From positions 4,369,836 through 4,433,835 of the forward strand of contig OZ024740.1 in NCBI GenBank assembly GCA_964016885.1: 64,000 bases of DNA, given 5' to 3'. The translations under genes and the position numbers were made by a program. Origin of the DNA: Eledone cirrhosa. Lineage: Eukaryota; Mollusca; Cephalopoda; Octopoda; Eledonidae. Shown in pieces: positions 3,425 to 64,000 of this stretch. The notes under the pieces were generated by a model that saw nothing but the letters and a program-made list of their open reading frames with translations, ran no database searches and had not been told where the DNA came from. Position 1 is the first letter of the stretch. Every line of letters starts with the position of its first letter.

Positions 3425-4641
3425 CTCATCATCATCATCATCATCATCACCGTTTTACGTCCGTTCTTCCACGCTAGCATGGGTTAGACGGGTTGTCCTG
3501 TTGTGGGCAGTGTCTGGTCGGCTGACCATGCCTTGCTCATACAGGAACTGATCTGGCTTGATTTCTACAGCTGGATGCCCTTCCTAACACCAACCTCATT
3601 TACAGTGAGTGCTGGGTGCTTTTTCGTGGCGCCTACACGTCCACTTTACAGTGTGGGCTGGGTGCTTTTTTGCCGTGGCACCTCCACGACCACCTTGCGG
3701 TGGGGGGGGGAGGGGCATATTGTTTATATGCTTCAGCATGTACCCATGGGAGGTCGGGTACCCTGTATTACTGCGTGACGCCAGAAGTCACGGTCGTGTG
3801 TCATTGACTTTGAGAGGTGTAGTTGGGTAAGGTCGGCTTTTATCACCTCATCCCAAGTCATCTTGGGTCTCCCCACTCCGCGGTTTCCATCAACTTCTAG
3901 TGCTCTGCACCTTTTTATGCAGCTGTCATCCTTCATACGCATCACATGTCCATACCAGCGTAACCGCCTCTCCTGCACGCAGCATTTGATTCCTCTTATG
4001 CTCAGTCTCTCTCTCAATTCATTTATGCTTTGTCGTTCACGTATATTACTGTTACACATCCATCGGAGCATGCAGGCTTCGTTTCTCTCTAATCTACGTA
4101 AGTCTTCCACCTTCAGCGCCCAGGTCTCACTACCATGCAACATCGCTGTTCGGATACACGCATCATACAGTCTGCCTTTCATTCTGAGGGAGAAGCCTTT
4201 TGCAGCTAGCAGTGGTAGTAGTTCCCTAAACTTCTTCCATCCCGTTCTTACCCTAGTTATTGTACTTTCTGAGCACCCACCTCCGTTGCTAATTCGGTCA
4301 CCTAGGTAGCAGAAGCTGTCTACTGTTTCTACAGGGCCCTCCCAGAGATTGGTGGTACTTGTTTCCTGTGGCTGTTTGCTTGCTGTTTCAGCACAGCTGC
4401 TGCATGTGAATCCTACATTCTTAATTAAGCTTCCTGAGATCCCGCTACATCTCTTGTGTACCCATTGTTTGCATTTGGGGCAAAGAATGGAGTTCCTACC
4501 TACACCTTTCCTACATACTGAGCAAGGCCATTTCCCTGAGGGGATCTGGGTTCTGTTTTCTCGTCTACTTATAAGGACCTTAGTCTTTGTCATGTTGACT
4601 TTGAGGCCCTTTCTCTCTAGTCCCTGCTTCCAGGTTTGGAA
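3425..4641 (-). mobile_element. LINE copy B, 5'-truncated, inserted in satellite A
   Basis: A minus-strand LINE about 1.2 kb long. Its 3' tail, read on the plus strand as a CATCATCATC run, is at the left end (3425), and its truncated 5' end is at about 4641. Satellite A flanks it on both sides. The satellite resumes with ATTCTAGGTTTATTAACAG. Any target-site duplication is only a few bases and cannot be fixed, because satellite variants also contain ATTTATTCTAGG. The 3' UTR differs from that of copies A and C, so this is a second subfamily. Confidence 0.85.
3733..4641 (-). CDS. LINE reverse transcriptase C-terminal region with PHD-like zinc finger (copy B)
   Basis: About 300 codons are open. 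Upstream of the first ATG (4591-4593) the frame continues with WKQGLERKGLKVN, a reverse transcriptase thumb-side motif, so the ORF is truncated rather than starting there. Counting from that Met, a Cys4-His-Cys3 cluster follows (C24, C27, C38, C41, H46, C49, C64, C67), the spacing of a PHD-type zinc finger. Then come FCYLGDRISNGGGCSEST, KGRLYDACIRTAMLHGSETW, RLERNEACMLRWMCN, RRLRWYGHVMRM and VGRPKMTWDEVI. The frame is intact to its stop at 3733. The catalytic core is missing, so the copy is dead on arrival. Confidence 0.86.
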   Translation of the reverse strand, partial: FQTWKQGLERKGLKVNMTKTKVLISRRENRTQIPSGKWPCSVCRKGVGRNSILCPKCKQWVHKRCSGISGSLIKNVGFTCSSCAETASKQPQETSTTNLWEGPVETVDSFCYLGDRISNGGGCSESTITRVRTGWKKFRELLPLLAAKGFSLRMKGRLYDACIRTAMLHGSETWALKVEDLRRLERNEACMLRWMCNSNIRERQSINELRERLSIRGIKCCVQERRLRWYGHVMRMKDDSCIKRCRALEVDGNRGVGRPKMTWDEVIKADLTQLHLSKSMTHDRDFWRHAVIQGTRPPMGTC

Positions 4642-6039
4642 TTTATTCTAGGTTTATTAACAGTTTGGGGGGACCTACATTCAAAATTTGGTCTAAGTTT
4701 ATTACCAGTTAGGGGAGGACCTACATTTCACATCTCGTCTACGTTTATTACCAGTTTGGGTGGGACCTACATTTCACATCTGGTCCAAATTTATTACCAT
4801 TTGGGGGAGACCTACATTTCACTTCTGGTCTAGGTTTATTACCGGTTAGGGGGGGACCTACATTATATATCTGGTCTAGGTTTATTAAGATTTAGGGGGG
4901 ACCTATATTTCACATCTGGTCTAGGTGTAGTACCAGTTTGAGGGAGACCTACATTTCACATCTGGTCTAGGTTTATTAACAGTTAGGAGGCACCTACATT
5001 TCACATCTGGTCTAGGTTTATTACCAGTTTGGGGTCACCTACATTTCAAATCTGGCCTAGGTTTATTACCAGTTAGGGGGGACCCACAGTTCACATCTGG
5101 TTTAGGTTTATTACCAGTTTGAGGGGGGACCAACATTTCAAATTTCTCTAGGTTTATTACCAGTAAGAGGGCGACCTTCATTTCACTTCTGGTCTAGGTT
5201 TATTACCAGTTAGGGGGGATCTACATTTCACATCTGGTCCAAATTTATTAACAGTTTGGGGGAGACCTACATTTCACTTCTGGTCTAGGTTTATTACCGG
5301 TTAGGGGGGGACCTACATTTCACATCTGGTCTAGGTTTATTACCAGTTTATGGGGGACGTACATTTCAAATTTGGTCTAGGTTTATTACCAGGTTGGGGG
5401 GGCCTACATTACACATCTGGTCTAGATTTATTAACAGTTTTGGGTGGGGACCTACAGTTCACATCTGGTTTAGGTTTATTACCAGTTAGTGGGGACCTAC
5501 ATTTCACATCTGGTCTAGGTTTATTACCAGTTAGGCGGGGGGGGACTTCATTTCACTTCTGGTCTCGGTTTATTACCCGTTTGGGGGGACCTACATTTCA
5601 CATCTGATCTAGGTTTATTACCAATTTGGGGAGGACCTACATTTCACATCTGGTCTAGGTTTATTACCAGGTTGGGAAGGACCTATATTTCACATTTGGT
5701 CTATGTTTATTACCAGTTTGGGAAGGACCTACATTTTACATCTGGTCTAAGTTTATTAAGAGTTAGGGGGACCTATATTTTACATCTGGTCTAGGTTTAT
5801 TAACAGTTAGTGGGGAAGGCATACATTTCACATCTGGTCTAGGTTTATTACCAGTTTGGGGGCACCTACATTTCAAATCAGGTCTAGGTTTATTACCAGT
5901 TTGGGGGGACCGATATTTAAAATGTGGTCTAAGTTTATTACAAGTTATGGGAGGACCTACATTTCACATTTGGTCTAAATTTATTACCGGTTAGGGGGGG
6001 GCCTACATTATATATCTGGTCTAGGTTTATTACCAGTTT

Positions 6040-35100: not shown

Positions 35101-37106
35101 GGGGGGCTACATTTCACATCTGGTCTGGGTTTATTACCAGTTTCGAGGGGCCCTACATTTCACATATGGTCTAGGTTTATTACCAGTTAGTGAGGTGGAC
35201 CTACATTTCATATCTGGTCTAGGTTTATTACCAGTTTAGGGGTGACCTATATGTCACATCTTGTCTAGGTTTATTACCAGTTAGGGTGTGACCTACATTT
35301 CACATCTGGTCTTGGTTTATTACCAGTTAGGGGGTGACCTATATTTCACATCTGGTCCAGGTTTATTACCAGTTAGATGGGGACCTACATTTCACATCTG
35401 GTCTAGGTTTATTAGCAGTTAGGGGGATCTACATTTCACATCTGGTCTAGGTTTATTAACAGTTAGGGGGGAACCTACATTTAACATCTGGACTAGGTTT
35501 ATTACCAGTTTGGGAAGGACCTACATTTCACATCTGGTCTAGGTTTATTAAGAGTTAGGGGGAACTACATTTCACTTCTGGTCTAGGTTTATTACCAGTT
35601 TGAGGGGGCGGGACCAACATTTCACATCTGGTCTATATTTATTACCAGTCTGGGGGGACCTACATTTCAAATTTGGTCTAGGTTTATTACAAGTTAGGGG
35701 AGGACCTACATTTCACATTTGGCCTAGGTTTATTACCAGTTTGGGAGGGATCTACATTTCACATCTGGTCTAAATTTATTCCAGTTTGGTGGGGACTTAC
35801 ATTTCACATCTGGTCTAGGTTTATTACCAGTTAGTGGGGACCTACATTTCACATCTGGTCTAGGTTTTTTACAAGTTTGGAGGGGGACCTATATTTCACA
35901 TCTGGTCTAGGTTTATTACCAGTTAGAAGGGTGACGTACATTTCACATCTGGTCTAGGTTTATTACCAGTTTGGGGAGGACCTACATTACACATCTGGTC
36001 TAGGTTTATTACCAGTTAGGGGGGGACCTACATTTTATATTTGGTCTAGGTTTATTACCAGTTTGGTGGGGACCTACATTTCACATCTGGTCTAGGGTTA
36101 TTACCAGTTTGGGGGGGGCCTACATTTCACATCTGGTCTAGGTTTATTACCAGTTTGGTAAGGACCTACATTTCACATCTGGTCTAGGTTTATTACCAGT
36201 TTGGGGAGGACCTACATTTCACATCTGGTCTAGGTTTATTACCAGTTTGGGAGGGACCCACATTTCATATCTGTTCTAGGTTTATTACCAGTTTGGGGTG
36301 ACCTACATTTCACATCTGATTTAGGTTTATTACCAGTTTGCGGAGGACCTTCATTTCACTTCTGGTCTCGGTTTATTACCAGTTTAGGGGTGGGCCTATA
36401 TTTCACATATGGTCTAGGTTTATTACCAATTTGGGGAGGACCTACGTTTCACATCTGGTCTAGATTTATTACCAGTTTGGGAAGGACCTACATTTCACAT
36501 CTGGTCTAGGTTTATTACCAGTGTGGTGGGGGACCTACATTTCACATCTGGTCTAGTTTTATTACCGGTTTGGAGGGACCTACATTTTACATCTCGTCTA
36601 GGTTTATAACCGGTTTGGAGGGACCTACATTTCAGATCTGGTCTAGGTTTATTACCAGTTTGGGGGGGGACCTACATTACACTTCTGGTCTCGGTTTATT
36701 ACCAGTTTAGAGGGGCCCTACATTTCACATATGGTCTAGGTTTATTACCAGTTAGGGGGGCCCAACATTTCACATTTGGTCTAGGTTTGTGACTCGTTTG
36801 GGGGGGGGGGGGTACCTACATTTCAAATTTGGTCTAGGTTTATTACCAGTTTGGGGAGGACCTACATTTCATATCTGGTCTAGGTTTACTACCAGTTTGA
36901 GGAGGACCTACATCTCACATCTGGTCTAGGTTTATTACCAGTTTGGGGGGCTGGACCTACATTTCACATCTGGTCTAGGTTTATTACTAGTTAGGGGGGG
37001 GGGGGCCTAAATTTCACATTTGGTCTAGGTTTATTACTAGTTAGGGGGGGACCTACATTTCACATTTGGTCTAGGTTTATTACCAGTTTGGGGAATAATA
37101 ATGATT

Positions 37107-37305
37107 TCTACTATAGGCACAATAGGGGAAGGGGAATGTTGATTAAATCAACCCCAGTGCATGATTGGTGCTTTATTTAATCAACTCCGTAAGGATAAAA
37201 GGTAAATGTAACGTCGGTGATATTTGAACTTAGATGGTAAAGGGGCGTAACTCTATGCTGCAAAGTATGTTGTCCGATATTTTACCAATACTGCCAATCC
37301 ACCAC
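37107..37305 (-). mobile_element. tRNA-derived SINE
   Basis: Read on the minus strand, it starts GGTGGATTGGCAGTATTGGT, an RNA polymerase III A-box-like head. A B-box-like AAGTTCAAATATC follows about 60 bases later, then a body containing ATTAAATAAAGCACCAATCA and CAACATTCCCC. Similar elements lie at 46675-46815 and 48880-49085. This layout, a tRNA-like head followed by a ROSPAAK-style conserved body, is typical of cephalopod SINEs (from general knowledge). Confidence 0.78.
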
Positions 37306-37690
37306 CAATAATAATAATAATGAAAATTATTGTGTACAGTGTTCAGGTGCACTACAACTTATCAAAGGTGCATGTATAGTACATAGAATAATGTACAAAT
37401 GTCAGGAAGGTAAACAGTGTATGAGTCATTATATACACACAGATACATGTCTGATGTATCGTGTCCTTGAGCAAGACACTTTATTTTAAGTTGCCCCACT
37501 TCACTCAGCTGTTGAAATGACTTGCAATTTCACTGATGCCAAACTGTATCTACCATTGCCATTCCCTTGGACAACATCAGTGACGTGGAGAGGGGAGACT
37601 GGTATGTATGGGCAACTACTGGTCTTCCACAAACAACCTTGCCACTCGGACTTGTGCCTTGAAGAGGAACTCTCTAGGTGCAAATCCTGT
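37306..37690. other. Dispersed-repeat DNA, no gene
   Basis: It begins with an AATAATAATAAT tract, followed by ACAGTGTTCAGGTGCACTAC, a block also present in diverged form near 2160-2180. It then contains TGTCCTTGAGCAAGACACTT, familiar from molluscan interspersed repeats. The short open frames on both strands have no domain or start support. I treat the segment as fragments of interspersed repeats of unnamed family. Confidence 0.5.
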
Positions 37691-37958
37691 GGTTATTTGA
37701 AGCTGAAGCATATAGACAATATGCCCCCAGCCCCTCCCACTGTAAAGTGGTCGTGGAGGTGCCACGGCAAAAAAGCACCCAGCACTCACTGTAAATGAGG
37801 TTGGTGTTAGGAAGGGCATCCAGCTGTAGAAATTAAGCCAGAATCAGTTCCCGTATGAGCAAGACAAAGTCAGCTGACTGGATACTGCCCACAACAGGAC
37901 ATCCCGTCTAACGCATGCTAGCATGGAAGAACGGACGTAAAACGGTGATGATGATGTT
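37690..37958 (+). mobile_element. LINE/SINE 3' end (subfamily of LINE B)
   Basis: The sequence from TGAAGCATATAGACAATATG through GGTTGGTGTTAGGAAGGGCA to ACGTAAAACGGTGATGATGA matches the reverse complement of the LINE B 3' end at 3425-3735. There is no coding sequence. Confidence 0.75.
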
Positions 37959-37972
37959 GAGATCATAATATC

Positions 37973-38017
37973 ATCATCATCATTTTACGTCCGCTTTTCC
38001 CTGCTTGCAAGGGTGAG

Positions 38018-38019
<2 letters not shown>
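37973..38019 (-). mobile_element. Short LINE/SINE tail fragment
   Basis: CATCATCATCATTTTACGTCC followed by about 25 bases of the same 3' end family in the opposite orientation, then directly a (TA)n tract. Only the terminal 45 bases or so remain. Confidence 0.6.

Positions 38020-38021
<2 letters not shown>

Positions 38022-38083
<62 letters not shown>
38022..38083. repeat. (TA)n microsatellite
   Basis: About 31 uninterrupted TA units. Similar tracts at 40921-40942 and 41141-41188 border the two Penelope-like elements. Confidence 0.97.
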
Positions 38084-38086
<3 letters not shown>

Positions 38087-38165
38087 AAGGTTTTATTTAA
38101 AATTGTTGGGTTACAACAAGTAAATATTTTATAACTGATATAAAGCACTCGACAAGTTTTTGGAG

Positions 38166-38534
38166 TATATATACGATATTAAACAAATGGAAACTATATT
38201 TATAAAACCATATTTATTTCATTATACATATTTCAGGGATACCATATTAAAAATATGGCATGCCTTCGTCAGATAAAATACAATATATAAGCAGTTTTAT
38301 AAATAATTTTGACGTACCATATTATAAGCGACCATTACATTAGGACGCTGTCTGGGTAGTGATTTGTTTATACTTATTTAGTTATAGTGTTAAGCACAGT
38401 TAGAAAAAAGACGGCGAGAAAGAAGAAATGGAGGTAAAGAAAAAACAGAGAAATAGAGGGGAGAGAAAGAAAGGAGGAGGTGGAAAGGAACAAGGAAGAA
38501 ATAAGAGAGGCAAACGAAAGCAACAGATAAATAA
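38166..38534 (-). repeat. PLE2 pseudo-LTR, sense copy (3' end)
   Basis: It is the reverse complement of 40562-40930 with scattered substitutions and small indels. In the element's orientation it holds a pyrimidine-rich block followed by the hammerhead motif. The plus strand shows long runs of A and G at about 38400-38530. The outer end is TATATATACGATATTAAAC. Confidence 0.85.
38216..38279 (-). ncRNA. Hammerhead ribozyme, type I (PLE2, sense copy)
   Basis: On the minus strand, in order: ATTTTAT (helix I, 5' strand), CTGACGA (core), a long helix II, GAAA (core), a minimal helix III formed by ATA and TAT around a 2-base loop, an A at the expected cleavage position, then ATGAAAT (helix I, 3' strand; 7 pairs with one G-U). 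It lies downstream of the endonuclease frame on the same strand. The central bases of helix II read in the opposite sense to those of the other copy, but the stem still closes. Confidence 0.75.
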
Positions 38535-38863
38535 TAATAATTCACCATACATATAGAAAAACTCAAGAGAGAGGGAGTACTATATATAGAGAGAAGGATA
38601 ATAATTATTTAGCTATAGTGTTAAGCAGTTAGAAAAAGACGGAGAGAAAGAAAAAACTGGAGATAAAGAAAAAGAAAAAACGGAGGGAGAGAGGGGGAAG
38701 GAAAGGAAGAGAGAGAGAAAATATAAATATATAGGAGGAAGTGAAAGAGAAACAAGAGAGAAATAGGAGAGGCAAACGAAAGCGATAGATACATAATAAT
38801 TCATCATACAGAAAGACAAACCCAAGAGAGAGGAGAAAGTGCTATAAAGAGAGAGAAGGATAT
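38378..38863. repeat. Roughly 231-bp purine-rich tandem duplication next to the PLE2 pseudo-LTR
   Basis: The block starting near 38379 (TTATAGTGTTAAGCA, then purine-rich, then GAGGCAAACGAAAGC and GAGAGAAGGATA) recurs from about 38610. The copies differ by many small substitutions and indels. The minus-strand open frame here, rich in Leu, Ser, Phe and Pro, is a by-product of the pyrimidine-rich strand and not a gene. Confidence 0.75.
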
Positions 38864-39359
38864 AGTTACATCTTTACGTCATGTCATATCAATTTGAATT
38901 ATCAATTCATATGAAATGGATAATAAGAATGCAAATATCGATATTGATGAATGAGACATAGATATATAATATGAGAAAATAACATTGTTCAATAATGACC
39001 ATATGTTTAGTTTCAAACTCTGAGGTCAATATACCAAAATCTGAGATAAAACCTTCAAAAAATTACCCTATTTATAAAAATACGGAAATATATATGTATA
39101 TATATATACACGTATATGTACTTTCTGAAAAAAGAAAAAATAGAAAATTATGTCTAACTCTAGTCAATAATATAGACATACACATGACTTTACCTAATCA
39201 ACCTTATAATTTCTTGTGTCATACAAAAAATTTCTTGTGTTATAAAAACTTCACTGTACATATACATAAATATACGATTAATATTCATGTTCTCACATAT
39301 ATGATTACCGTTTATGTATTTAATGTTATGCATATCTGTAACATATACAAAACCATACC

Positions 39360-39393
<34 letters not shown>

Positions 39394-39948
39394 AAATCTG
39401 CGTGAGTTTACCAGCATCTTTATGCACATATACAGACACATGAACACATAAAATAAACTCTGTAAACCTTCTATATGCATGTTAATACACATATGGCCTT
39501 TGTATAGAGATAATCAAATATCAATATATCAGCACAGAAACATCAAAACATTAAAATACTTTTAACACATTATAGAGTATCTCAGGCCAAAATCAATATG
39601 CTTCATATATTTACTACAGAAATGTACCCTTCCCATATTTCAAAACAATATATTGCAAAGTTAGTTATAAGCTATCAGAGTCAAATAATAAATAAAAACC
39701 AAAAATTATTTAACAAAAATTATTTAAAAGATTTAGAAGACCCAGTGATTCTACGGATGCCCTTATATTTAGTATAGAAATTTATCTTGCGTAAAATTTA
39801 TTTAATACATTGGGAGCATATACACTTTAGAGTAGTTTATTACATCTTTGTTTATATTTAGGAAGAAGGTTTAAAAAGAAAAAGGTGAAGGAATCAAATG
39901 ATTTATCGTCAGGTTTCATATATTAACTAAATTTCTTAATTAATTATA
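38864..39948 (-). other. AT-rich 3' UTR of PLE2
   Basis: It lies between the endonuclease stop and the pseudo-LTR. It is strongly AT-rich, with TA microsatellites near 39092-39110 and 39358-39385. The open frames on both strands are low-complexity Ile/Tyr/Asn-rich readings without family features. Confidence 0.6.
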
Positions 39949-40560
39949 CTACATTTTAAATTTATATTTATATTTAAACGTTGAGTTCAATCTATGTCTG
40001 CAGCAACTGAATAAATTGCTCCTTAAATTAAAGGAATTTTTGGACTTTAATATAAAGAATACCTCCTCCACACAGAGATCACATGTCTCTGATGAGGAAT
40101 TAAAGGGAATTCCCTTTGAGACAATATTCCAAAACATCGAATACTCAACATTATCTCGTTTAAGTTGCCAGAGTAGGCTTGATAGCGAAGTTGAGGATTT
40201 TTTGCTTGGATCTGTGAAAGAATTCTTATGATTATTGAAGCGAAGTTTAAATTCTGTCGAGGTTGAACCAACATAGTTGAAAGAATTTAAGTTAGTTTTA
40301 ACATTACAATTGTATACTACATTTTTAACTAAGCAATTGTTATTTAACGGACAGTTAGATTTATTTCTACAGTTACAGTTATTTAATTGAATATTGTTTG
40401 GGTTATTATTGGTATTTTGGTTAGGTTTTAAATTCCTATTATTAATTCTGTTAATATTTTGTGCTAAATTTTTGGTGGGCGAGTAAGTTAATTTTATAGC
40501 ATGTCTATTAAAAATTGAGTGATATTTATGTGTTCTAGGGAAGCGTTTGTCAAGAGCATT
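39949..40560 (-). CDS. GIY-YIG endonuclease domain of PLE2 (5'-truncated ORF)
   Basis: About 203 codons are open on the minus strand without interruption. The frame has no start Met, because it begins at the truncation joint (LDKRFPRTHKYHS). The order is an Asn-rich linker, a Cys cluster NCNCRNKSNCPLNNNCL, then VVYNCNV and NYVGSTSTEFKLRFNNHKNS (the GIY-YIG core of Penelope-like elements), LSSLLWQLK, FWNIVSKGIPF and CDLCVEE with a terminal CRHR. These match the usual C-terminal endonuclease of Penelope-like retroelements, which nicks target DNA to prime insertion. The corresponding part of PLE1 is frameshifted, so this is the best-preserved endonuclease here. Without the reverse transcriptase it cannot act alone in retrotransposition. 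Confidence 0.88.
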   Translation of the reverse strand, partial: NALDKRFPRTHKYHSIFNRHAIKLTYSPTKNLAQNINRINNRNLKPNQNTNNNPNNIQLNNCNCRNKSNCPLNNNCLVKNVVYNCNVKTNLNSFNYVGSTSTEFKLRFNNHKNSFTDPSKKSSTSLSSLLWQLKRDNVEYSMFWNIVSKGIPFNSSSETCDLCVEEVFFILKSKNSFNLRSNLFSCCRHRLNSTFKYKYKFKM

Positions 40561-40561
40561 A

Positions 40562-40930
40562 ATTTATCTGTTGCTTTCGTTTGCCTCTCTTATTTCTTCC
40601 TTGTTCCTTTTCACCTCCTCCTTTCTTTCGCTCCCCTCTATTTCTCTGTTTTTTCTTTACCTCCGTTTCTTCTTTCTCTCCGTCTTTTTTCTAACTGTGC
40701 TTAACACTATAACTAAATAAGTATAAACAAATCACTACCCAGACAGCGTCCTAATTTAATGGTCGCTTATAATATGGTACGTCAAAATTATTTATAAAAC
40801 TGCTTATATATTGTATTTTATCTGACGAAGGCATGCCATATTAAAAATATGGTATCCCTGAAATATGTATAATGAAATAAATATTGGTTTTATAAATATA
40901 GTTTCCATTTGTTTAATATCGTATATATAT
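40562..40930 (+). repeat. PLE2 pseudo-LTR, inverted copy (5' end)
   Basis: Inverted relative to the element's coding strand and joined directly to the truncated endonuclease frame at 40560-40562. It contains the pyrimidine-rich block and then the hammerhead motif. The outer end GTTTAATATCGTATATAT runs into a (TA)n tract. Confidence 0.85.
40815..40878 (+). ncRNA. Hammerhead ribozyme, type I (PLE2, inverted copy)
   Basis: Helix I is 40815-40821 (ATTTTAT) with 40872-40878 (ATGAAAT), seven pairs including one G-U. Core CTGACGA is at 40822-40828. Helix II is 40829-40841 with 40847-40859, 12 pairs with one C-C mismatch and one G-U. Core GAAA is 40860-40863. Helix III is 40863-40865 with 40868-40870, three pairs and a 2-base loop. 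The cleavage nucleotide is A at 40871, after U. All core bases of the hammerhead consensus (CUGANGA, GAAA, UH) are present. Minimal helix III hammerheads are known in Penelope pseudo-LTRs. Confidence 0.8.
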
Positions 40931-41020
40931 ATATATATATATAACGAAGAAAATGTGGTAAGGAACCAGGTGGACCATAACGCACCAAAGTACTCAATAC
41001 TTGAGGTAGTAGAGTGGGTA

Positions 41021-41137
41021 ATAGGAACCAGTAAGACCCCGACAGCTGAGCTCAAGCCGTTTCGACGGCTAATTCTGGACAGAATTAGCCGTCGAAACGG
41101 CTTGAGCTTGAGCTCAGCTGTCGGGGTCTTACTGGTT

Positions 41138-41142
<5 letters not shown>
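41021..41142. repeat. Snapback palindrome, 57-bp arms, 2-base spacer
   Basis: The left arm (41021-41077) is the exact reverse complement of the right arm (41080-41142), except that the right arm has a 6-base insertion duplicating GCTTGA. The spacer is GA. The arms contain AGCCGTTTCGACGGCT. It lies between the (TA)n tracts at 40921-40942 and 41141-41188. Its origin is unknown. It may be an inverted duplicate of the end of another mobile element. Confidence 0.93.

Positions 41143-41188
<46 letters not shown>
41141..41188. repeat. (TA)n microsatellite
   Basis: Perfect TA units directly between the palindrome and the left end of PLE1. The shorter tract at 40921-40942 marks the right end of PLE2. 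Confidence 0.95.
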
Positions 41189-41194
<6 letters not shown>

Positions 41195-41197
<3 letters not shown>

Positions 41198-42010
41198 GAG
41201 ATTACATGAATCAAAGTTCTGTTTAAATCATTTATTTGCTTACAATTGTTTCTTCCAAACCGAGGTTTGGAGTCTTCGGATCAATTATTCAGTGATTTTT
41301 AACATACTTGACCTCCTTTTCAGCACAAGAGACATATAGAAACATATGTATATTTTGACCCACAGTGGGTTGACATCCATTATAATAATATGGCATGGTA
41401 ATTTAAATACAAAGATTACAGTCATATTAAAGGACAAAGTTAAAGTTAAAATTAAAATTAAAATTAAAATAAAACATTGGCAGTTTACTCAGATAAAGCA
41501 AGAGGAAAGTTTGGAGTAGCCAGTGTATGCAACAGTCACACGTGTCCTATTTATACAAGATTATAGTGCGGCAGATTGTTACATGTAAAACAAGCAGTCA
41601 AAGCAGGCAATCAAGAGCATCATGGGGGCTGTACTAGTAAAGCATTATTCACACACACCTGTACGATATAGAAGCCCGTGTGTAGAGAAACACCAAAAAT
41701 ATCAAAAATATTACAAATGAGAAGTAAAACAGCACCACTGTCCTCGTACACACCACCACTCTCACAATCCAGGAAACGCAATTTATAGACTACATGTCCA
41801 TCACACAATCCACGATGATTCAACATTGGGTGCCTGGTGAACCATGCTAGAACATCACAGCTTGTCGTTCTTTAGTTCGATTCTATAGAGCAGGTTGTTT
41901 TTGTTGTGAGAGTTGACATCGTATTATATTCCGGAAGTGTGTGTGTGATTAAGGGGAGTTAATGCGTAATGGGGGGTAACTAGCTGATTTCTATAGCTAA
42001 ATTTATTATC
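41195..42010 (-). repeat. PLE1 pseudo-LTR, inverted copy
   Basis: Reverse complement of 45598-46419. It differs by a few substitutions and by lacking a 15-base stretch found near 46057-46071 in the right copy. It carries the TATA-like TATTTATA (41548-41555, minus sense) and a hammerhead-like motif in antisense to the polymerase. Confidence 0.9.
41236..41284 (-). ncRNA. Hammerhead-like motif of PLE1 (inverted copy)
   Basis: Minus-strand copy of the motif at 46329-46377, with CCGAAGA, a CCAAACC/GGTTTGG stem, GAAA, a short ACA/TGT helix and a UA site. Helix I has one mismatch (TTGAT against AGCAA). The core C at position 4 replaces the usual U, so activity is doubtful. Confidence 0.45.
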
Positions 42011-42349
42011 CCACTGTGGATCAATATATACATATGTTTCTATATGTCTCTTGTGCTGAAAAGGAGGTCAAGTATGTTAAAAATCACTGAATAATTGCTC
42101 CGAAGACTCCAAACCTCGGTTTGGAAGAAACAATTGTAAGCAAATAAATGATTTAAACAGAACTTTGATTCATGTAATCTCTATATAACTGCTCTGTAAA
42201 ACAACTGATGTTGTTATATTGAGCTATTTATCTTACTGGTAATAAGATAGTAATAAATTACTGTCTTTTACTATTTAGGGTATAAAATATATATAACTAT
42301 AAAAGGTTTTAGTATATACATAACCATAAATAGTATCCTTAATACTATT
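42011..42349 (+). repeat. PLE1 pseudo-LTR, direct partial copy upstream of the polymerase
   Basis: Matches 46245-46577. It begins at CCACTGTGGATC, directly abutting the inverted copy, and lacks the TATA-like segment of the complete pseudo-LTR. It includes the hammerhead-like motif and ends about 45 bases before the first ATG. Confidence 0.9.
42095..42143 (+). ncRNA. Hammerhead-like motif of PLE1 (upstream direct copy)
   Basis: Helix I is TTGCT (42095-42099) with AGCAA (42139-42143), five perfect pairs. The core CCGAAGA is at 42100-42106; the consensus is CUGANGA, so only position 4 deviates. Helix II is CCAAACC (42109-42115) with GGTTTGG (42118-42124), extended by one T-A pair but with a C-A mismatch next to the core. 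GAAA is 42127-42130. Helix III is ACA/TGT with an AT loop (42130-42137). The cleavage base is A at 42138. Of the three copies, only this one has a perfect helix I. The fold is convincing; the C4 change makes catalysis uncertain. Confidence 0.5.
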
Positions 42350-42392
42350 AACTGCTCCATACTGTTGAGCTGACATACAATAAATTACCAGT

Positions 42393-44828
42393 ATGCTGAT
42401 CAAAGACCAACTCCCTATGTCAACCAAGAACATACCAATACCATCCAAAAATACATATGAAAAATTATTGATCGACAGTGTAAATTCCTTTATCAATAGA
42501 GTGAGATGGAGGACATTCCATTATGATAAAAACAAATCTAACAAGGTTAATAATACTAACAAATTTGACTCCTTCGGCTTTAAAACCTTTAGAAGCCCGC
42601 CTCATAACACACTACTAAACTCCTTTGAAAATGACCTAATAAAACTAGTTAAGAATATTAAATACAAAAAGCACCGTAATAAAAACAACACCTTCTTAAA
42701 CAAACTTAGCACCTCTATTAATGATTTCAAAACTAGTAATAAAATTATTGTACATGCGGACAAAACTAATAACATATACAGCCTAGATTATAATACTTAT
42801 AGAAAGTTTATATATAATGAACTACATAAAAGCTACAAGGAAACCACTATGAAAAACTTAGAAGATATTAACATGGAAGGCTATAATATAGTGTCCAAAC
42901 TAGGACTCCAGAAACATACACAACCATATACCCCAAACCTCCCTAGATTCTCTCTGAAGGACCATAAGGAGGACTTCATTAGCAACCCCTCGATTAGACT
43001 TATCTGCCCTTCCAAGTCTGACATTGGCATTATCAGTAAGAAATTTTTAGATAAAATCATCCCACAGATTAAACACAAGATTTACCTTAAACAATGGGGA
43101 AATACAGGTGAAGTGATTGAATGGTTCAAAGATATCAAGGATAACAAGGATAAAAAATTTATTCAATTTGATATCAATTTATACTACACCTCTATTTCCC
43201 CTATCCTATTAAATAAGGCACTTATCATGGCCATGGACAATAGTGACCTGACTAGACCCCAGATTGATGTCATACTTGCGGCCCGTAAAACAGTAATCAC
43301 CTTTGAAGACCAATTATGGACCCGCAAAACAACTTCGACATAACCATGGGATCTAGTGACTCGGCGCAGGTCACTGATTTAGTCGGCCTATATTTACTTA
43401 ACAAAATCCATAAGGACCTTCCATACCTCAACGGTGGTTTGTACCGCGATGATGCACTTCTACTTATAGATTATAAAAAATTCAATATAGAAAGAACTAG
43501 AAAACTATTGCACAAGACATTCAAAAACTATAACCTTAGTATTACCATGGACAAAAACACTAAAAACGTTAACTTCCTGGACGCCACCCTCTACCTAGAC
43601 TCAAAGATATATGCACCTTTCCACAAACCTAATGAAAAACTCATTTACGTAGATACCAAGTCTAACCACCCTAGATATATATTAAACTCTATCTCTAAGA
43701 GAGTATCTAATAGAATCTCTAATCTATCCTATGACGTAAACATATTTAGCAAAAACTCGCAATATTATAATCAGGCATTAGCTAGATCAGGCCATAATAT
43801 AGAGATCGAGTTCCTACCTACAAAAACACATAGCTACAACATTATTTCGCACAACATGTCCATGAGGAAATTTAGTAATAGGAATAGCAACCACACACAC
43901 ACTAATACGGAGGATACCAACAAAAGTAACCCACACCACAGAAATTACCATAGTACCATAAAAAGAAACAACTCACCAGACATAAAAAACAAAAATAGAA
44001 GAAGAAATAATACATTTTTCAACCCTTCTTTCAATCTAAACGTCTCTACCAACCTACCTAGAGCTTTCTTCTCACTACTAGATAAAAACTTCCCATCCGG
44101 CCACAAGTACCATAGTCTTTTAAACAAAAACACTATTAAAATCTCCTACTCTACTACGCCTAACATAGCATACCACATAGCTAGTAGCAATAAAAGAAAA
44201 ATTAATTCTTACTTCCAGCAAACTAAATCACAACAGACGATAAACCTTCAAAATAACATTATAGCAACTAACCCTAATATCAATAGAAATAATAGTAATA
44301 GCACTAGTGTAAACAATAACGCTGGGAACGTCAACCCACATAACCATAACCCTATAGCTACCATCCAGACTTCTACACAACATAATAACCGGCAGACTAA
44401 CACCCATAATTGTAACTGTAGATCAAATAGAACCTGCCCTTTAGATAAAAAATGCTTAACCAAGGATATCATATACTCATGCACAGTCACAACTAGCAAC
44501 TCTTCTGAAACCTATATAGGCTCTACTTCAAAACCAGATACAATTCGCACCTCCACTCTTTCAAAAAAACAGTCTAGCCAACTCCACTTCACTATCTAGC
44601 TACATACACTATCTAAAAACTAAAAATAAACCATATACACTTAAATGGGAAGTGATAGGTAACGCGACATCGTACAAACCACCTAATAAATTTTGTAACC
44701 TCTGTCTACTAGAGACCCATACTATCATCTTCTCAAACCATAACCTCCTTAATAAAAAATCAGAAGTGTTCGCGTCTTGCCAACACCGCTTCCGACACTC
44801 CTTTCAAAACTTTAAACCCAATATATAA
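42393..44828 (+). pseudogene. Penelope-like reverse transcriptase with GIY-YIG endonuclease, frameshifted
   Basis: About 810 codons lie across three frames. The first part (42393-43343) has the N-terminal IIVHADKTNNIYSLDYNTY block, LKDHKEDF with RLICPSKSDIG, and catalytic motif A (FIQFD, D at residue 260). A one-base deletion in an A-run near 43330 shifts to the second part (about 43316-44599), with VGLYLLNKI, the catalytic GLYRDDA motif C, NVNFLDATLYLD and SNHPRYIL. This is followed by an Asn-rich linker, the Cys cluster CNCRSNRTCPLDKKC, and IIYSC with TYIGSTS (GIY-YIG). A second shift near the A7 run at 44563-44569 moves the reading to a third frame ending CNLCLLE and ASCQHR, with its stop at 44826-44828. 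The enzyme would copy element RNA at nicked target DNA. The shifts make this copy inactive unless they are sequencing errors. The 62-83-codon open frames on the other strand are incidental. Confidence 0.92.
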
Positions 44829-45597
44829 CAATGTCAGACTTGAACCCGTCACCACCTCTAGCAACAATCATCAGGGGCACACCTTACACCTCATCTCCAC
44901 ACCCATTAATCCACTTTAACGCAAATAGTGACATCCTCCTAGTACCTTTTACCCTAGAGATATCCCCATGTACTTCTACTTTTGGTATATTGGCCTTCAA
45001 TTACTTAGACTACATTACACCAATATATAATTAATGTAAACTTTAAGCACGGAATTGGTTGTGCTAACATTGTCCTGTGTATGTAGTGCCATCATTGGAT
45101 AAATGGAAGATTAAGTAATTAATTTATTAACATAAAAGAGCTATATAATCTATATGCTGAGTGCAATGAATTATGTACAGGTGATGTATGAGTTATAAAT
45201 ACATGTATGACTTGATGGTCATATTAGTGTCTTTGTAAGTGAGAATTGATCTCTGGACTACCCTAGTGATATTTAACTTTGCCATGCAATCAGACATGCA
45301 ATGACCCAGAGCTTACCAGGAGTTATATATAGAAGTGATTCTAATAAGATCCTGCCAGGTTCTGTGGGTGGACTACACTTACAAAGATCATTGATTTGGC
45401 GATCTGACTCTTCATGTGGAATATTCGGTGGTGGCACTCTATGATAGAAGGTAATCATCCTAATATGAACACGTTAGTACTTCTTGATAGACTACACTGT
45501 AATCTATAGATAAGATACTTAAATTTAGAAATTGTTTATAACCTTATATGATAGGAACACATTTGAGACACCATTAATGTACGTTAGGATAATAAAT
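44829..45597 (+). other. 3' UTR of PLE1
   Basis: It follows the polymerase stop and runs to the start of the complete pseudo-LTR. There is a 67-codon open frame at 44831-45034 without any family feature. Nothing else is recognised. Confidence 0.6.
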
Positions 45598-46042
45598 TTA
45601 GCTATAGAAATCAGCTAGTTACCTCCCATTACGCATTAACTCCCCTTAATCACACACACACTTCCGGAATATAATACGATGTCAACTTTCACAACAAAAA
45701 CAACCTGTTCTATAGAATCGAACTAAAGAACGAGAAGCTGTGATGTTCTAGCATGGTTCACCAGGCACCCAATGTTGAATCATCGTGGATTGTGTGATAG
45801 ACATGTAGTCTATAAATTGCGTTTCCTGGATTGTGAGAGTGGTGGTGTGTACGAGGACAGTGGTGCTGTTTTACTTCTCATTTGTAATATTTTTGATATT
45901 TTTGGTGTTTCTCTACACACGGGCTTCTATATCGTACAGGTGTGTGTGAATAATGCTTTACCAGTACAGCCCCCATGATGCTCTTGATTGCCTGCTTTGA
46001 CTGCTTGTTTTACATGTAACAATCTGCCGCACTATAATCTTG

Positions 46043-46050
46043 TATAAATA
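46043..46050 (+). promoter_or_regulatory. TATA-like box in the PLE1 pseudo-LTR
   Basis: TATAAATA on the element's sense strand, about 290 bases upstream of the hammerhead-like motif. It is also present in the inverted copy, but absent from the shorter upstream direct copy. A promoter role is inference from the motif alone. Confidence 0.35.
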
Positions 46051-46328
46051 GGACACGCGTGCATGCCACACGTGTGACTGTTGCATACACTGGCTACTCC
46101 AAACTTTCGTCTTGCTTTATCTGAGTAAACTGCCAATGTTTTATTTTAATTTTAATTTTAATTTTAACTTTAATTTTGTCCTTTAATGTGACTGTAATCT
46201 TTGTATTTAAATTACCATGCTATATTATTATAATGGATGTCAACCCACTGTGGGTCAATATATACATATGTTTCTATATGTCTCTTGTGCTGAAAAGGAG
46301 GTCAAGTATGTTAAAAATCACTGAATAA

Positions 46329-46377
46329 TTGATCCGAAGACTCCAAACCTCGGTTTGGAAGAAACAATTGTAAGCAA
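46329..46377 (+). ncRNA. Hammerhead-like motif of PLE1 (downstream direct copy)
   Basis: Same fold as 42095-42143. Helix I is TTGAT (46329-46333) with AGCAA (46373-46377), with one A-G mismatch. The core CCGAAGA is 46334-46340, the helix II arms are 46343-46349 and 46352-46358, GAAA is 46361-46364, and cleavage would fall after A at 46372. Two such sites bracket the polymerase, so a unit-length RNA of about 4.2 kb would be expected if both cut. Confidence 0.45.
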
Positions 46378-46674
46378 ATAAATGATTTAAACAGAACTTT
46401 GATTCATGTAATCTCTATAGAACTGCTCTGTAAAACAACTGATGTTGTTACATTGAGCTATTTATCTTACTGGTAATAAGATAGTAATAAATTACTGTCT
46501 GTCACTATTTAGGGTATAAAATATATATAACTATAAAAGGTTTTAGTATATACATAACTATAAATCCTTAATACTATATGTATATATATGTATGTATAAA
46601 GAACATCAAAAATGAAAAAAAATACATAAAAACAAGACAATGATGGATTATTAGTCTAATGCTTGATTTATCAT

Positions 46675-46815
46675 TATTATTATAATCGGTAGAGCGTCAG
46701 ACAAGATGTTTTGTGGCATATAGTTATGACTGAGTTCAAATCCCTCTGAGGTTAGATATCAGTAACACACTGGCATTAATTTAATCAACTTTTCCCTTCC
46801 CCCAAATTGTTAGCC
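46675..46815 (+). mobile_element. Degenerate tRNA-derived SINE
   Basis: ATCGGTAGAGCGTCAGACA (A-box-like head) followed by GAGTTCAAATCCC (B-box-like) and a shortened body AACACACTGGCATTAATTTA. Same family layout as 37107-37305, but more decayed. Confidence 0.7.
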
Positions 46816-47077
46816 TCTAAATTGAAAACCATCGTTATTAAGTTCTTTTCCCTAAATGATGCCCCCATCCAAAGGACGCCCGGAGCCAACGCCCCCCTGC
46901 ACGCTACAGTCTGTCTCTATCATGGGTGAGAACACTATAGTGGCTGGATCATTAAACCATTTCTATAAATTATTAGGTCCATAGGTAAAAATACATTACA
47001 ATATAATGTTGTTGATAAACACAAATATAAACATATAACAAAAACAATTAACTATTGTAATGTTATTTATGTATATA

Positions 47078-47183
47078 TACAGGATGGCCCCAATAAATGT
47101 ATACACACTTTGATTACCTGTACAGGCAATATTTATTAGAATGCTGTTGATGTGTGTATATATTTTTTGGGGACACCCTGTAT
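47078..47183. mobile_element. Mariner-type MITE
   Basis: About 106 bp with inverted ends: TACAGGATGGCCCCAATAAA on the left, and on the right the reverse complement form TACAGGGTGTCCCCAAAAAA. TA dinucleotides lie at both edges, fitting the TA target preference of Tc1/mariner elements. It has no coding capacity, so it would need transposase from elsewhere. Confidence 0.75.
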
Positions 47184-47358
47184 ATTATTTAATAAAAAAA
47201 AGAAAGAAAGAAATTATGAACTGATAACTCTAAAAAAGATGTCAAATTCTAAATTGAAGCCAAAGTGAAAGTAATGGTTTAATATTTTAGGTGTAATGTC
47301 TACTTTTAAATTATATTATACAAAGCATATAAATAAATTTACAGTAGAATAATATAAT

Positions 47359-48545
47359 ATCATCATCATCATCATCATCAACGTTTAACGTCCGTGTTCC
47401 ACGCTTGCATGGGTTTGGACGGGGGTATTCCCACTTGAGGCAAGAGTGATTGTCTTGCTCGCATAGGACTGTCTGGCAGGTTTTCTACAGTTGGATGCCC
47501 TTCCTAACACCAACCACATTTACAGTGTGGGACTGGGAGGTTTTTACCGTGTTGCCTACACGGCCACATTACAGCGTGGACTGTGTGTTTTTTTGTCGTG
47601 ACACCTACACGATCTCATTTGTTTCGGCCTGGATGTTGTGGCACCAACATAACTTTACATAGGAGGGGGTTGTGTGGATGGGTTGTGGGTGGTGGGACGG
47701 GGGTGTATTTTGTTAGAGATGCCTACTGGCTGTAGTAGGTTTTACTATATATTTAGGTAAGGCGGGTCTTCTCTATTACTGAGTACCGCCAAAGGTCTCG
47801 GTCCAGTGAAATTGTCTTGGAGAGGTGTAAGTGTGTGAGGTCGGAGTTTATCAGCTCGTCCCAGGATTTTCTAGGTCTGCCTGTTCCGTGGCTACCGTCT
47901 ATCTTTATTGCCCTGCACTTTGTTATACAGCTATCGACTTTCATGCGCATCACGTGTCCGTACCAACGTAGCCTTCTCTCGAGTAAACAACATCTGATCC
48001 CTCTTATTTCTAATTTTTTCCTTAGTTCGTTTATGCTTTGCCGTTGACATATATTACTATTACACATCCAATGGAGCATGCAAGCTTCGTTCCTCTCTAG
48101 TCTGCGTATATCCTCTGTGCACAATGCCCAGGTCTCACTGCCATGCAACATTGCTGTTCGTATGCAAGCATCATACAACCTGCCTTTCATTTTTAGGGAG
48201 AACCCTTTAGCGGCTAATAGTGGTATAGGCTCTCTGAACTTTTTCCATCCAGTTCTGACTCTAGCTACTGTACTTTCGGAGCACCCTCCCCCACTGCTGA
48301 TTTTGTCACCCAGGTAACGGAAGCTGTCCACTATTTCTATAGCGCCCTCTGCGCAATTGAAAGAGTTAGTATTTTGTGGGCACTCGCTGCTACTTATTGC
48401 ACCAGAGCACCGCCCACATGTAAAATCTAAGTTCTTAGTTAGCTTACCTGTGATCCCACTGCATCTTTTATGCACCCATACTTTGCATTTGGGACATAAA
48501 ATGGAGTTTCTACCTACGCCTTTCCTACACACTGAGTATGGCCAT
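47359..48545 (-). mobile_element. LINE copy C, 5'-truncated
   Basis: A minus-strand LINE whose 3' tail appears as a CATCATCATC run at about 47360-47381. The 3' UTR (to 47752) is nearly identical to that of LINE copy A. Truncation is at about 48545, just upstream of the zinc finger. Flanking DNA on both sides contains inverted similarity (47001-47077 and 48552-48743). Confidence 0.85.
47753..48545 (-). CDS. LINE reverse transcriptase C-terminal region with PHD-like zinc finger (copy C)
   Basis: About 264 codons are open to the stop at 47753. There is no true start: the frame enters from the truncation point with PYSVCRKGVGRNSILC. The PHD-like Cys/His cluster (CRKGVGRNSILCPKC, WVHKRC, FTCGRC) is followed by FRYLGDKISSGGGCSEST, KGRLYDACIRTAMLHGSETW, RLERNEACMLHWMCN, RRLRWYGHVMRM and TGRPRKSWDELI. 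It is close to copy A throughout; a few changes (LHWMCN for LRWMCN, MKVDS for MKDDS) look like drift. The catalytic palm is missing. Confidence 0.86.
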
Positions 48546-48879
48546 AAATATATACATAAATAACATTACAAATGCTTAGATAACATTATAAATTGCTCGC
48601 GATACTTTCAGAAGGATATTCTTTTAATGCTGCAAAGGTATATGCCAACTAAACTCTGGTCATATATTTTGGTACGTGGTTTTTGTGAGGTTCCTAGGAC
48701 TAGTTAATTGTAGTTGTTTATATTTGTGTTTATCAACATTATATTTGTTGGTCAATCAATGATAAACATTGATAGCCAGCTAAAATATTTATAGAAATAT
48801 AAAGATATACTGAAGCGAAAACCAAACAGTGAGTGTGTTTTACTATATTTTTCTGGCAATATTAGAACAACGTGGGCGG
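48546..48879. other. AT-rich non-coding DNA
   Basis: No gene. It contains two blocks (48552-48576 and about 48715-48743) that match the reverse complement of 47001-47077. Confidence 0.55.
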
Positions 48880-49085
48880 TGGATTGGCAATATCGGTAGA
48901 GGGTCGGATGCCATGCTTTGAAATAAAGAGTTACGGCCCTTTACGGTCTAAGTACGAATCACGCTGAGGTTCACTTTGCCTTTCATCCTTACGGGGTAGA
49001 TAAAATAAAGTACCAGTAATACACTGGGGAAATTGATGGCCATGTGCCAAAAGTAGAAACAATTATTTAATAAAAACTATTATTA
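48880..49085 (+). mobile_element. tRNA-derived SINE
   Basis: Starts GGCGGTGGATTGGCAATATC, with the A-box-like part GGTAGAGGGTCGG and a decayed B box AAGTACGAATCAC. It then has the body CCTTTCATCCTTACGGGGTA and AATAAAGTACCAGTAATACA. It matches the minus-strand SINE at 37107-37305. Confidence 0.8.
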
Positions 49086-49500
49086 CCAATTGCAAAAAAA
49101 AGAAAAAAAGCAACTACGAAATAAAATAATAAAAATAAATAGGTATGGTAACAGACCTGTCTCAGACAAGTTGGTAACAAAGCAAACAACATCTGTTCCA
49201 GAGCAACGGACATTTCTATAGAGTTGACAGCCATAGACATATCTCAAAGATTCCTCTTGATTCTTATCCTGTGTGACTAATTAACAAGCTTCTGAATTGA
49301 TGGCCTTTGTTATAGGTTTCATCATATGTTAGTGTACATTGTGTTTATAATATCTTATTAATGAATTCTTGTTATTATAAATGCAAACGAAATAAAATTG
49401 ACTGAGAAGAACGACAGATGAATAAAAGGACATCTACGTGGTTTACTCCACGTCGTACAAATTGGTAAAACGGCCGCTGAATGAGAAGAAGTGAAGAGAA
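49086..49500. other. AT-rich non-coding DNA
   Basis: No supported gene or recognised element. A-rich tracts occur near 49095-49140. Confidence 0.5.
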
Positions 49501-49668
49501 TTCAAATGTCAGTGTATGTGTGTATGTGTGTGTATGTATATATATATATAGTGAAATATATATATATATATAGTGAAATATATATATATATATATATATA
49601 TAGTGAAATATATATATATATATATATAGTGAAATATATTTATAGTTGGATATATATATATATATATG
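49501..49668. repeat. TG/TA microsatellite with regular TAGTGAAATA interruptions
   Basis: A GTGTATGTGTGTATG stretch is followed by TA tracts broken four times by the same block TAGTGAAATA (from about 49549, 49571, 49601 and 49627). The reading frames across it, rich in Ile and Tyr, are low-complexity artefacts. Confidence 0.85.
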
Positions 49669-50146
49669 CTAAACCTATAAACACTAGTTCCTTTGAAAGG
49701 AATGAAGGCTGTGATATCACAGTTCTTCATAATAAATGAATAACAAACAGCAAAGTTAAATAAAAAATTAAATAGATAAAAATTAAAACGAAAAAAAATC
49801 GAAAAAATAAAAGATAGTATGAGTTGGCCAACTTTAAAAACAATAAGTTTCCTTATTTCATGTCCGCTCCTAGTGTCTATATAAAATTTAAAGTATATAT
49901 ATAATAAAAACATGTTTAAATTACATCTATTACGTAATATAATATATAAAAGACAAGGTTGTATTAATTGTTTGCATTCTAGCAACTCAGCCTTAGACAT
50001 CAGATATTTCATCTGATATCTACAAGTATAGAATAACTGATACCTTATCCTTTCTTCCTCTTATCTCTTTACATAACTAAGTTGTCTTTTCATACTTTAA
50101 TAGGGTTTTGATGGAATTTAGACAAGGGTGAGCCTTAATAAAGTTA
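49669..50146. other. AT-rich DNA before satellite B
   Basis: No gene recognised. The minus-strand open frame over this part is Phe/Ile/Tyr-rich and runs into the microsatellite, so I do not accept it. The satellite starts abruptly at about 50147. Confidence 0.5.
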
Positions 50147-63985: not shown

Positions 63986-64000
63986 ATAGCCAGATCAGAC

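Follow-up and report, generated by a model that had tools for sequence, protein, structure and literature searches.

A minimal type I hammerhead motif in the two inverted pseudo-LTR copies of a 5'-truncated Penelope-like element from Eledone cirrhosa

The two inverted pseudo-LTR copies of a 5'-truncated Penelope-like element (PLE2) in Eledone cirrhosa very probably carry a minimal type I hammerhead motif, with the following mechanism. One transcript of an active, tandemly arranged family member would contain two sense copies. Their 8-nt helix III segments would pair with each other to form a double hammerhead, and/or the protein of the element would help a single copy to fold. The RNA would be cut after A17. 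The PLE2 copies at this locus would be leftovers of insertion. Throughout, the window is the whole stretch of 64,000 nucleotides that was analyzed.

The hammerhead motif of PLE2

The type I hammerhead consensus comprises CUGANGA and GAA, an A15.1-U16.1 pair, and H17. All of its invariant bases are found, read base by base, in the right arm of PLE2 (40814-40879, + strand), which was located by an exact core scan and by reading of the sequence. The complete core of the initial annotation is therefore present. The whole right copy has the order TATTTTAT CTGACGA AGGCATGCCATATT-AAA-AATATGGTATCCCT GAA ATATGTAT A ATGAAATA, and forms three helices, with the structure open at helix I.

Helix I is formed by residues 40814-40821 (TATTTTAT) and 40872-40879 (ATGAAATA), and contains 8 pairs including one G·U, rather than the 7 counted previously. 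The core segment C3 to A9 (40822-40828) reads CTGACGA, or CUGACGA in the RNA, with a C at the free position 7. It is followed by the helix II segment (40829-40859), in which the strands AGGCATGCCATATT and AATATGGTATCCCT enclose an AAA loop (40843-40845). This helix has 13 pairs and one C·C mismatch (3 pairs, the mismatch at the fourth position, and 10 further pairs), instead of the 12 pairs given earlier. G12, A13 and A14 are the GAA at 40860-40862. The 8-nt helix III segment, AUAUGUAU (40863-40870), has A15.1 at its start and U16.1 at its end, and is a self-complementary near-palindrome. In the monomer, helix III is weak, with 2 pairs and a 4-nt loop, while in the dimer it would have 8 pairs. 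A helix III of 3 pairs with a 2-base loop, as first proposed, can be drawn, but a 2-nt loop is disallowed by the nearest-neighbor model. A17 is located at 40871, and cleavage is predicted between 40871 and 40872, the same position as in the initial annotation.

The second copy is located in the left arm (38215-38280, - strand), with C3 at 38272, A17 at 38223, and a predicted cut between 38223 and 38222. CTGACGA, GAA, the A-U pair and A17 are present in both copies. The left copy is identical to the right one except for three bases in the loop of helix II, which is TTT (38251-38249) instead of AAA when both are read in the ribozyme sense; the 14-nt sides of the hairpin are the same. These three adjacent changes look like a single inversion of the hairpin loop, possibly by template switching or a flip of the hairpin. 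Judged by its sequence, the motif of PLE2 is a genuine minimal type I hammerhead motif like those published for PLEs, for which cleavage is predicted. Three points are less ordinary: helix II is long, its loop is inverted from one arm to the other, and the neighboring element PLE1 has a C4 core (see below). PLE2 thus offers an intact core with long, well-defined helices I and II, assayable as it stands, beside a family with a substituted core.

The element carrying the two copies

The right pseudo-LTR arm of PLE2 (40558-40929, + strand) is inverted relative to the left arm (38166-38535, - strand) and 97.3% identical to it, with 8 mismatches and 2 gaps across 372 aligned columns. In the - sense, the left arm continues into an 82-nt extension (38165-38084) that ends at an (AT)n array and is absent from the right arm. 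TA repeats border PLE2 on both sides. In animal PLEs, both direct and inverted pseudo-LTRs occur, the inverted form being usual, and a one-arm tail, 5' truncation and AT-rich targets have also been described (PMC3846280).

The arms flank an ORF of the RT/endonuclease type. The ORF fragment of PLE2 (39949-40563, - strand; 204 aa from stop to stop) contains the end of the RT region, a cysteine-rich linker, and an endonuclease whose motif, read by eye, belongs to what we take to be the GIY-YIG family. BLASTP finds that this ORF matches the C-terminal part of the PLE1 ORF (E=2e-11) and the endonuclease of L001, a contig from a genome collection (41% identity over 195 columns, E=3e-48). Most of the RT has been lost in PLE2, and is present in PLE1 and L001. 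PLE2 is considered 5'-truncated because of this missing portion. The inverted arms and the ORF matches bear out the earlier placement of the site in the pseudo-LTR of a Penelope-like element.

The PLE2 ORF has no Pfam match. For the endonuclease, a sequence search of the Protein Data Bank gave 0 matches, no relative was found in plasmids, and 0 proteins reached E<=1e-3 among 78 candidates with 0.55-1.75 times its length. The predicted structure of the endonuclease is of low confidence, with a mean pLDDT of 33 for the sequence alone and 43 with four sequences. A fold comparison gives no reliable match and places 3or3 and 2wsh, presumably GIY-YIG enzymes, far down the ranking with unreliable scores.

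The second hammerhead copy is on the - strand because the pseudo-LTR is inverted. Since the endonuclease ORF is on the - strand, the right copy, the one originally reported, is antisense to the ORF, and the left copy (38272-38223, - strand) has the same sense as the ORF. With inverted arms, only one copy is in the ribozyme sense in each element transcript. Tandem sense copies that could act together as a dimer are usual for PLE hammerheads but do not define them. The arms are too similar to each other, with three loop bases differing within the motif, for selection on the motif to be argued.

Most classical type I hammerheads of animals are located in retrozymes, short units of a few hundred bp that are repeated in tandem (PMC7229834, PMC7761336), and the motif might on this precedent belong to a small non-autonomous retrozyme rather than a PLE. 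No such unit is repeated in tandem at the motif, however, and the window has only two perfect-core copies, both of them PLE arms flanking the endonuclease ORF. This origin was rejected on these grounds and is considered very unlikely.

Several other features are found in the window. Between PLE2 and PLE1, beside TA repeats, some 120 nt (41021-41142) make up a near-perfect foldback, which is perhaps a foldback or snap-back element; the folding energy of 41010-41150 as RNA is -109.4 kcal/mol, with a z of -17.9. A 32-kb satellite with a 46-bp unit, and also a 138-bp period at 80% matches, occupies 4647-37093, and a second one with a 55-bp unit (93% matches) extends from 50147 to the end of the window at 64000. 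A PHD finger is encoded by each of two ORF fragments (3733-4647, and 47753-48565 on the - strand), which are probably remains of non-LTR retrotransposons; relatives of the 47753-48565 fragment bear RT domains.

A neighboring PLE family with a variant core

The element PLE1 (about 41194-46565, + strand) has its ORF in two overlapping frames (42384-44599, + strand). The first frame (42384-43343) covers the first part of the RT, with FDINLYYTSI, and the second (43307-44599) covers the RT with YRDD, followed by the start of the endonuclease. Among 1160 candidates, 113 homologs of the first ORF piece were found at E<=0.001. Two of the RT homologs carry names from the sea slug Elysia marginata, and the alignment of PLE1 with ten homologs has the consensus GLYRDDGL. 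PLE1 has inverted arms (41194-42011 and 45587-46419) as well as a direct repeat (42010-42331 and 46244-46565).

Three hammerhead-like copies are found in PLE1. Copy a (42095-42143, + strand) has the order TTGCT CCGAAGA, helix II, GAA ACAATTGT A AGCAA. Copy b (46329-46377, + strand) and copy c (41236-41284, - strand, in the inverted arm) are like copy a, each with one mismatch in helix I. Their consensus is TTGMT CCGAAGA CTCCAAACCTCGGTTTGGAA GAA ACAATTGT A AGCAA, where M is C in one of the three copies and A in the other two. The parts have the same order as in PLE2, and the helix III segment is a perfect palindrome of 8 nt. In all three copies, CCGAAGA (42100-42106, 46334-46340 and 41279-41273) replaces CTGANGA. 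The core therefore deviates by a C for U at position 4, and the first pair of helix II is C·A. Two of the copies are direct, and both have the C at position 4.

The CCGAAGA core marks a variant or a decayed family. That the PLE1 copies are a working variant, in which cytosine 4 is tolerated since dimerization or the protein of the element keeps the core in place, is improbable; if it were true, canonical and variant cores would be used side by side by two PLE families in one genome.

A third element is represented by L001 (3787 bases), which encodes a relative of the PLE RT and came from a pattern search of the genome collection that gave 46 matches. It contains parts of two head-to-head PLE copies, with RT motifs and the endonuclease. 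The contig (1-3787) is filed under a bacterial MAG, and is probably contaminating eukaryotic DNA. A core pattern finds CTGACGA GTGC-GTAA-GCAC GAAACTC in L001, in the sense orientation and starting 125 nt past the stop of the endonuclease; the end of the contig follows. It corresponds to a canonical hammerhead cut down to its 5' half, with a chance expectation of 0.0034 for L001. The half motif was not picked up in L001 by the two covariance models built here (R1 and R2, see below), which gave weak unrelated matches only, a relaxed scan of L001 for the full motif found no match, and the truncated half motif is not listed by Rfam at E<=5.

In viral contigs, searches for relatives with the first PLE1 ORF piece and with the PLE alignment A3 gave 5 and 81 stretches, respectively, 0 of them confirmed. 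A DNA pattern search gave 0 relatives in viral contigs and 0 in genome contigs.

Chance expectation and covariance models

An exact-core scan of both strands of the whole window gives two matches only, the two arms of PLE2, and the satellite arrays have no perfect-core hammerhead on either strand. Random sequence matched to the dinucleotide composition of 37100-50140 (300 Mb) yielded 7 motifs with a perfect core and at least 4, 4 and 3 pairs in helices I, II and III, corresponding to 0.003 expected per 64 kb on both strands. With at least 7 pairs in helix I and 8 in helix II, the number is 0. In 300 strand scans of dinucleotide shuffles of 37500-50100 (n=150), the motif occurred 0 times.

A looser scan of 37100-50140, with no helix III required and one core mismatch allowed, finds both PLE2 copies and only one other site, 40254-40293 (+ strand). 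This site has CTGTCGA in the reverse strand of the PLE2 ORF and was taken for chance. A relaxed scan of the whole window, with one core mismatch and a self-complementary helix III (chance expectation 0.076), gives three matches, the two PLE2 copies and copy a of PLE1; copies b and c were missed because of the mismatch in helix I.

The curated covariance models do not recognize the motif. Rfam 15 (4227 families) has no match in the whole window at the gathering score. Of the 7 matches to 40600-41100 at E<=10, none is to a hammerhead family, and nothing matched the 67-nt segment 40814-40880 at the same threshold. There is also no hammerhead match in 41180-42200, which includes copies a and c of PLE1. 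The confirmation by covariance model that the initial annotation called for was thus not obtained from Rfam, an outcome that would count as a refutation under that annotation's own rule, yet a model built from PLE1 finds the PLE2 copies. Agreement with a curated model supports the assignment to the type I hammerheads and is no part of their definition. The null result, which was weighed without a positive control showing that Rfam misses working PLE hammerheads, was set aside as a refutation because the core definition is found base by base and because the motif recurs, whole or in part, in two other elements. PLE2 is then an intact-core hammerhead motif passed over by curated covariance models.

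The E-values of the two models built here are rough. R1, based on the three PLE1 copies only and run without filters on 37100-50140, places both PLE2 copies (21.7 bits, E=0.0012) immediately below the PLE1 copies themselves; among the 18 matches listed, the one that follows has an E value of 0.14 and corresponds to copy a of PLE1 read on the reverse strand. R2, based on the two PLE2 copies only, finds PLE1 copies a, b and c with E values of 0.00094, 0.012 and 0.012. It ranks its own reverse strands above PLE1 (E=1.2e-05), helix II being palindromic, and the next of its 19 matches has an E value of 0.37. The structures for both models were supplied by the analyst, and both share the primary sequence AAAUAAAU besides the structure.

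These results bear on a reading in which an AT-rich hairpin happens to lie beside a CTGACGA word and a GAAA. The hairpin of helix II is itself a strong palindrome and Rfam calls no hammerhead, as such a coincidence would have it. The random-sequence and shuffle counts given above led to its rejection, however, and the same layout is repeated in PLE1, with its 5' half in L001, so that coincidence is extremely improbable.

Folding energetics of the monomer and the double hammerhead

The nearest-neighbor model allows a monomer in which helix III consists of two pairs and an AUGU loop, costing about 2.9 kcal/mol. In a 131-nt context, the monomer hammerhead with this 2-pair helix III has an energy of -22.2 kcal/mol, which is 5.2 above the optimum of -27.4 kcal/mol. 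With two PLE2 strands, the helix III segments pair over 8 positions, two of them G·U. The energy of this double hammerhead is -33.8 kcal/mol, compared to an unconstrained optimum of -34.8 kcal/mol for the right copy and -35.7 kcal/mol for the left copy. The two-strand optimum for the left copy is a different fold, in which helix II strands are paired between the molecules. For PLE1 copy a, the two-strand optimum, from unconstrained folding only, is itself the double hammerhead (-32.8 kcal/mol, compared to -11.3 for one strand).

The folding models thus appear to disfavor the monomer and to suit the double hammerhead, which in PLE2 would be close to the optimum but not the optimum itself. The dimer energetics of PLE2 and PLE1 fit what is reported for type I hammerheads of amphibians, which act as dimers, and for those of PLEs, which may do so. 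PLE hammerheads have been suggested to cleave as dimers (PMC7761336, PMC6466107), and newt and axolotl type I hammerheads are reported to be poor as single motifs and good as dimers (PMC7229834).

The dimer suggested in the initial annotation agrees with these energies, but not with the arrangement of this insertion. The copies are inverted, so the arms would pair with each other and no working tandem dimer would form in cis. The arm-arm hybrid over 67 nt has an energy of -98.2 kcal/mol, versus -15.1 for the single strand. As the inverted arms would pair, cleavage from the PLE2 locus is probably weak or absent on these models. A dimer of the PLE2 type would need a tandem copy elsewhere, two molecules, or help from a protein.

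Activity of the family and of this locus

On our analysis, activity is plausible for the family and doubtful for this locus. All five copies in the window read through the predicted cut, suggesting that the template RNA was uncut there or was rejoined. This continuation past the cut is also what would be expected if the hammerhead were genuine but dead, an inherited motif kept only since the copies are recent; this reading overlaps with the weak or absent cleavage expected at the locus, and differs in taking the whole family as inactive. The truncated element, its inverted arms and the unfavorable monomer fold point in the same direction. On the other hand, the core and helices of PLE2 are fully intact, and there are reports of minimal PLE hammerheads that function as dimers or when protein is present. 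Moreover, for the element of Anolis, unprocessed RNA is reported as the main insertion substrate in vitro although the ribozyme is active with protein. We regard an inactive family as possible, and clearly less likely than the mechanism proposed above.

The motif could also be a structured RNA or DNA element in which cleavage is incidental, such as a palindromic landing site, or a hairpin that binds the RT or places a primer. This would agree with the length and palindromic nature of helix II, with the inversion of its loop from one arm to the other, and with reverse transcription in the Anolis element, which is reported to start inside the RNA and to need no ribozyme cleavage in vitro (PMC11167929). 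A hairpin role alone, however, leaves unexplained why CUGANGA, GAAA and UA are placed exactly as in a hammerhead, and this function is unlikely. A putatively self-cleaving hammerhead of a PLE family is the reading preferred here, and the activity and role of the minimal PLE hammerheads were still described as a mystery in a 2020 review (PMC7761336).

Comparison with known hammerheads and PLEs

Minimal type I hammerheads in PLE pseudo-LTRs are said to have been described by Cervera and De la Pena in 2014, and by Lunse, Weinberg and Breaker in 2017. In most natural type I hammerheads, helix I and loop II are joined by a tertiary contact. PLE hammerheads have been reported without this contact (PMC6155905), and minimal hammerheads are known from PLE pseudo-LTRs (PMC6155905, PMC7761336).

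The PLE hammerhead of Poseidon PAc from Anolis carolinensis is reported to cut only with added protein (PMC11167929). As in PAc, the host of the PLE2 motif is an endonuclease PLE with the hammerhead at the pseudo-LTR, and the RNA template is uncut, in vitro in the case of PAc and by inference here. PLE2 differs from PAc, in which the ORF begins within the hammerhead; by eye, no ORF continues downstream of the motif in PLE2.

Newt and axolotl type I hammerheads have a helix III of one or two pairs, and the loop of HHR_Amex1 is palindromic, a likeness to PLE2 (PMC7229834). In contrast to PLE2, they are described in tandem-repeat retrozymes, and HHR_Amex1 has conserved contacts between loops 1 and 2.

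The Penelope elements of Adineta vaga (PMC3846280) resemble PLE2 in having inverted pseudo-LTRs, an optional one-arm tail, 5' truncation, and AT-rich targets. The word hammerhead is absent from the main text of that paper.

The similarity to the published PLE hammerheads, as far as these are described, covers the host element, the site in the pseudo-LTR, the complete core, the weak helix III, and the expected dimer mechanism. The differences are in helix II, which is long in PLE2 (13 pairs, with the C·C mismatch), in the copies, which are inverted here, and in helix III, which is an 8-nt near-palindrome in PLE2 while PLE members are described as usually having no helix III. The motif of PLE2 is not new in kind, as minimal hammerheads in PLE pseudo-LTRs have already been published, and the example is new.
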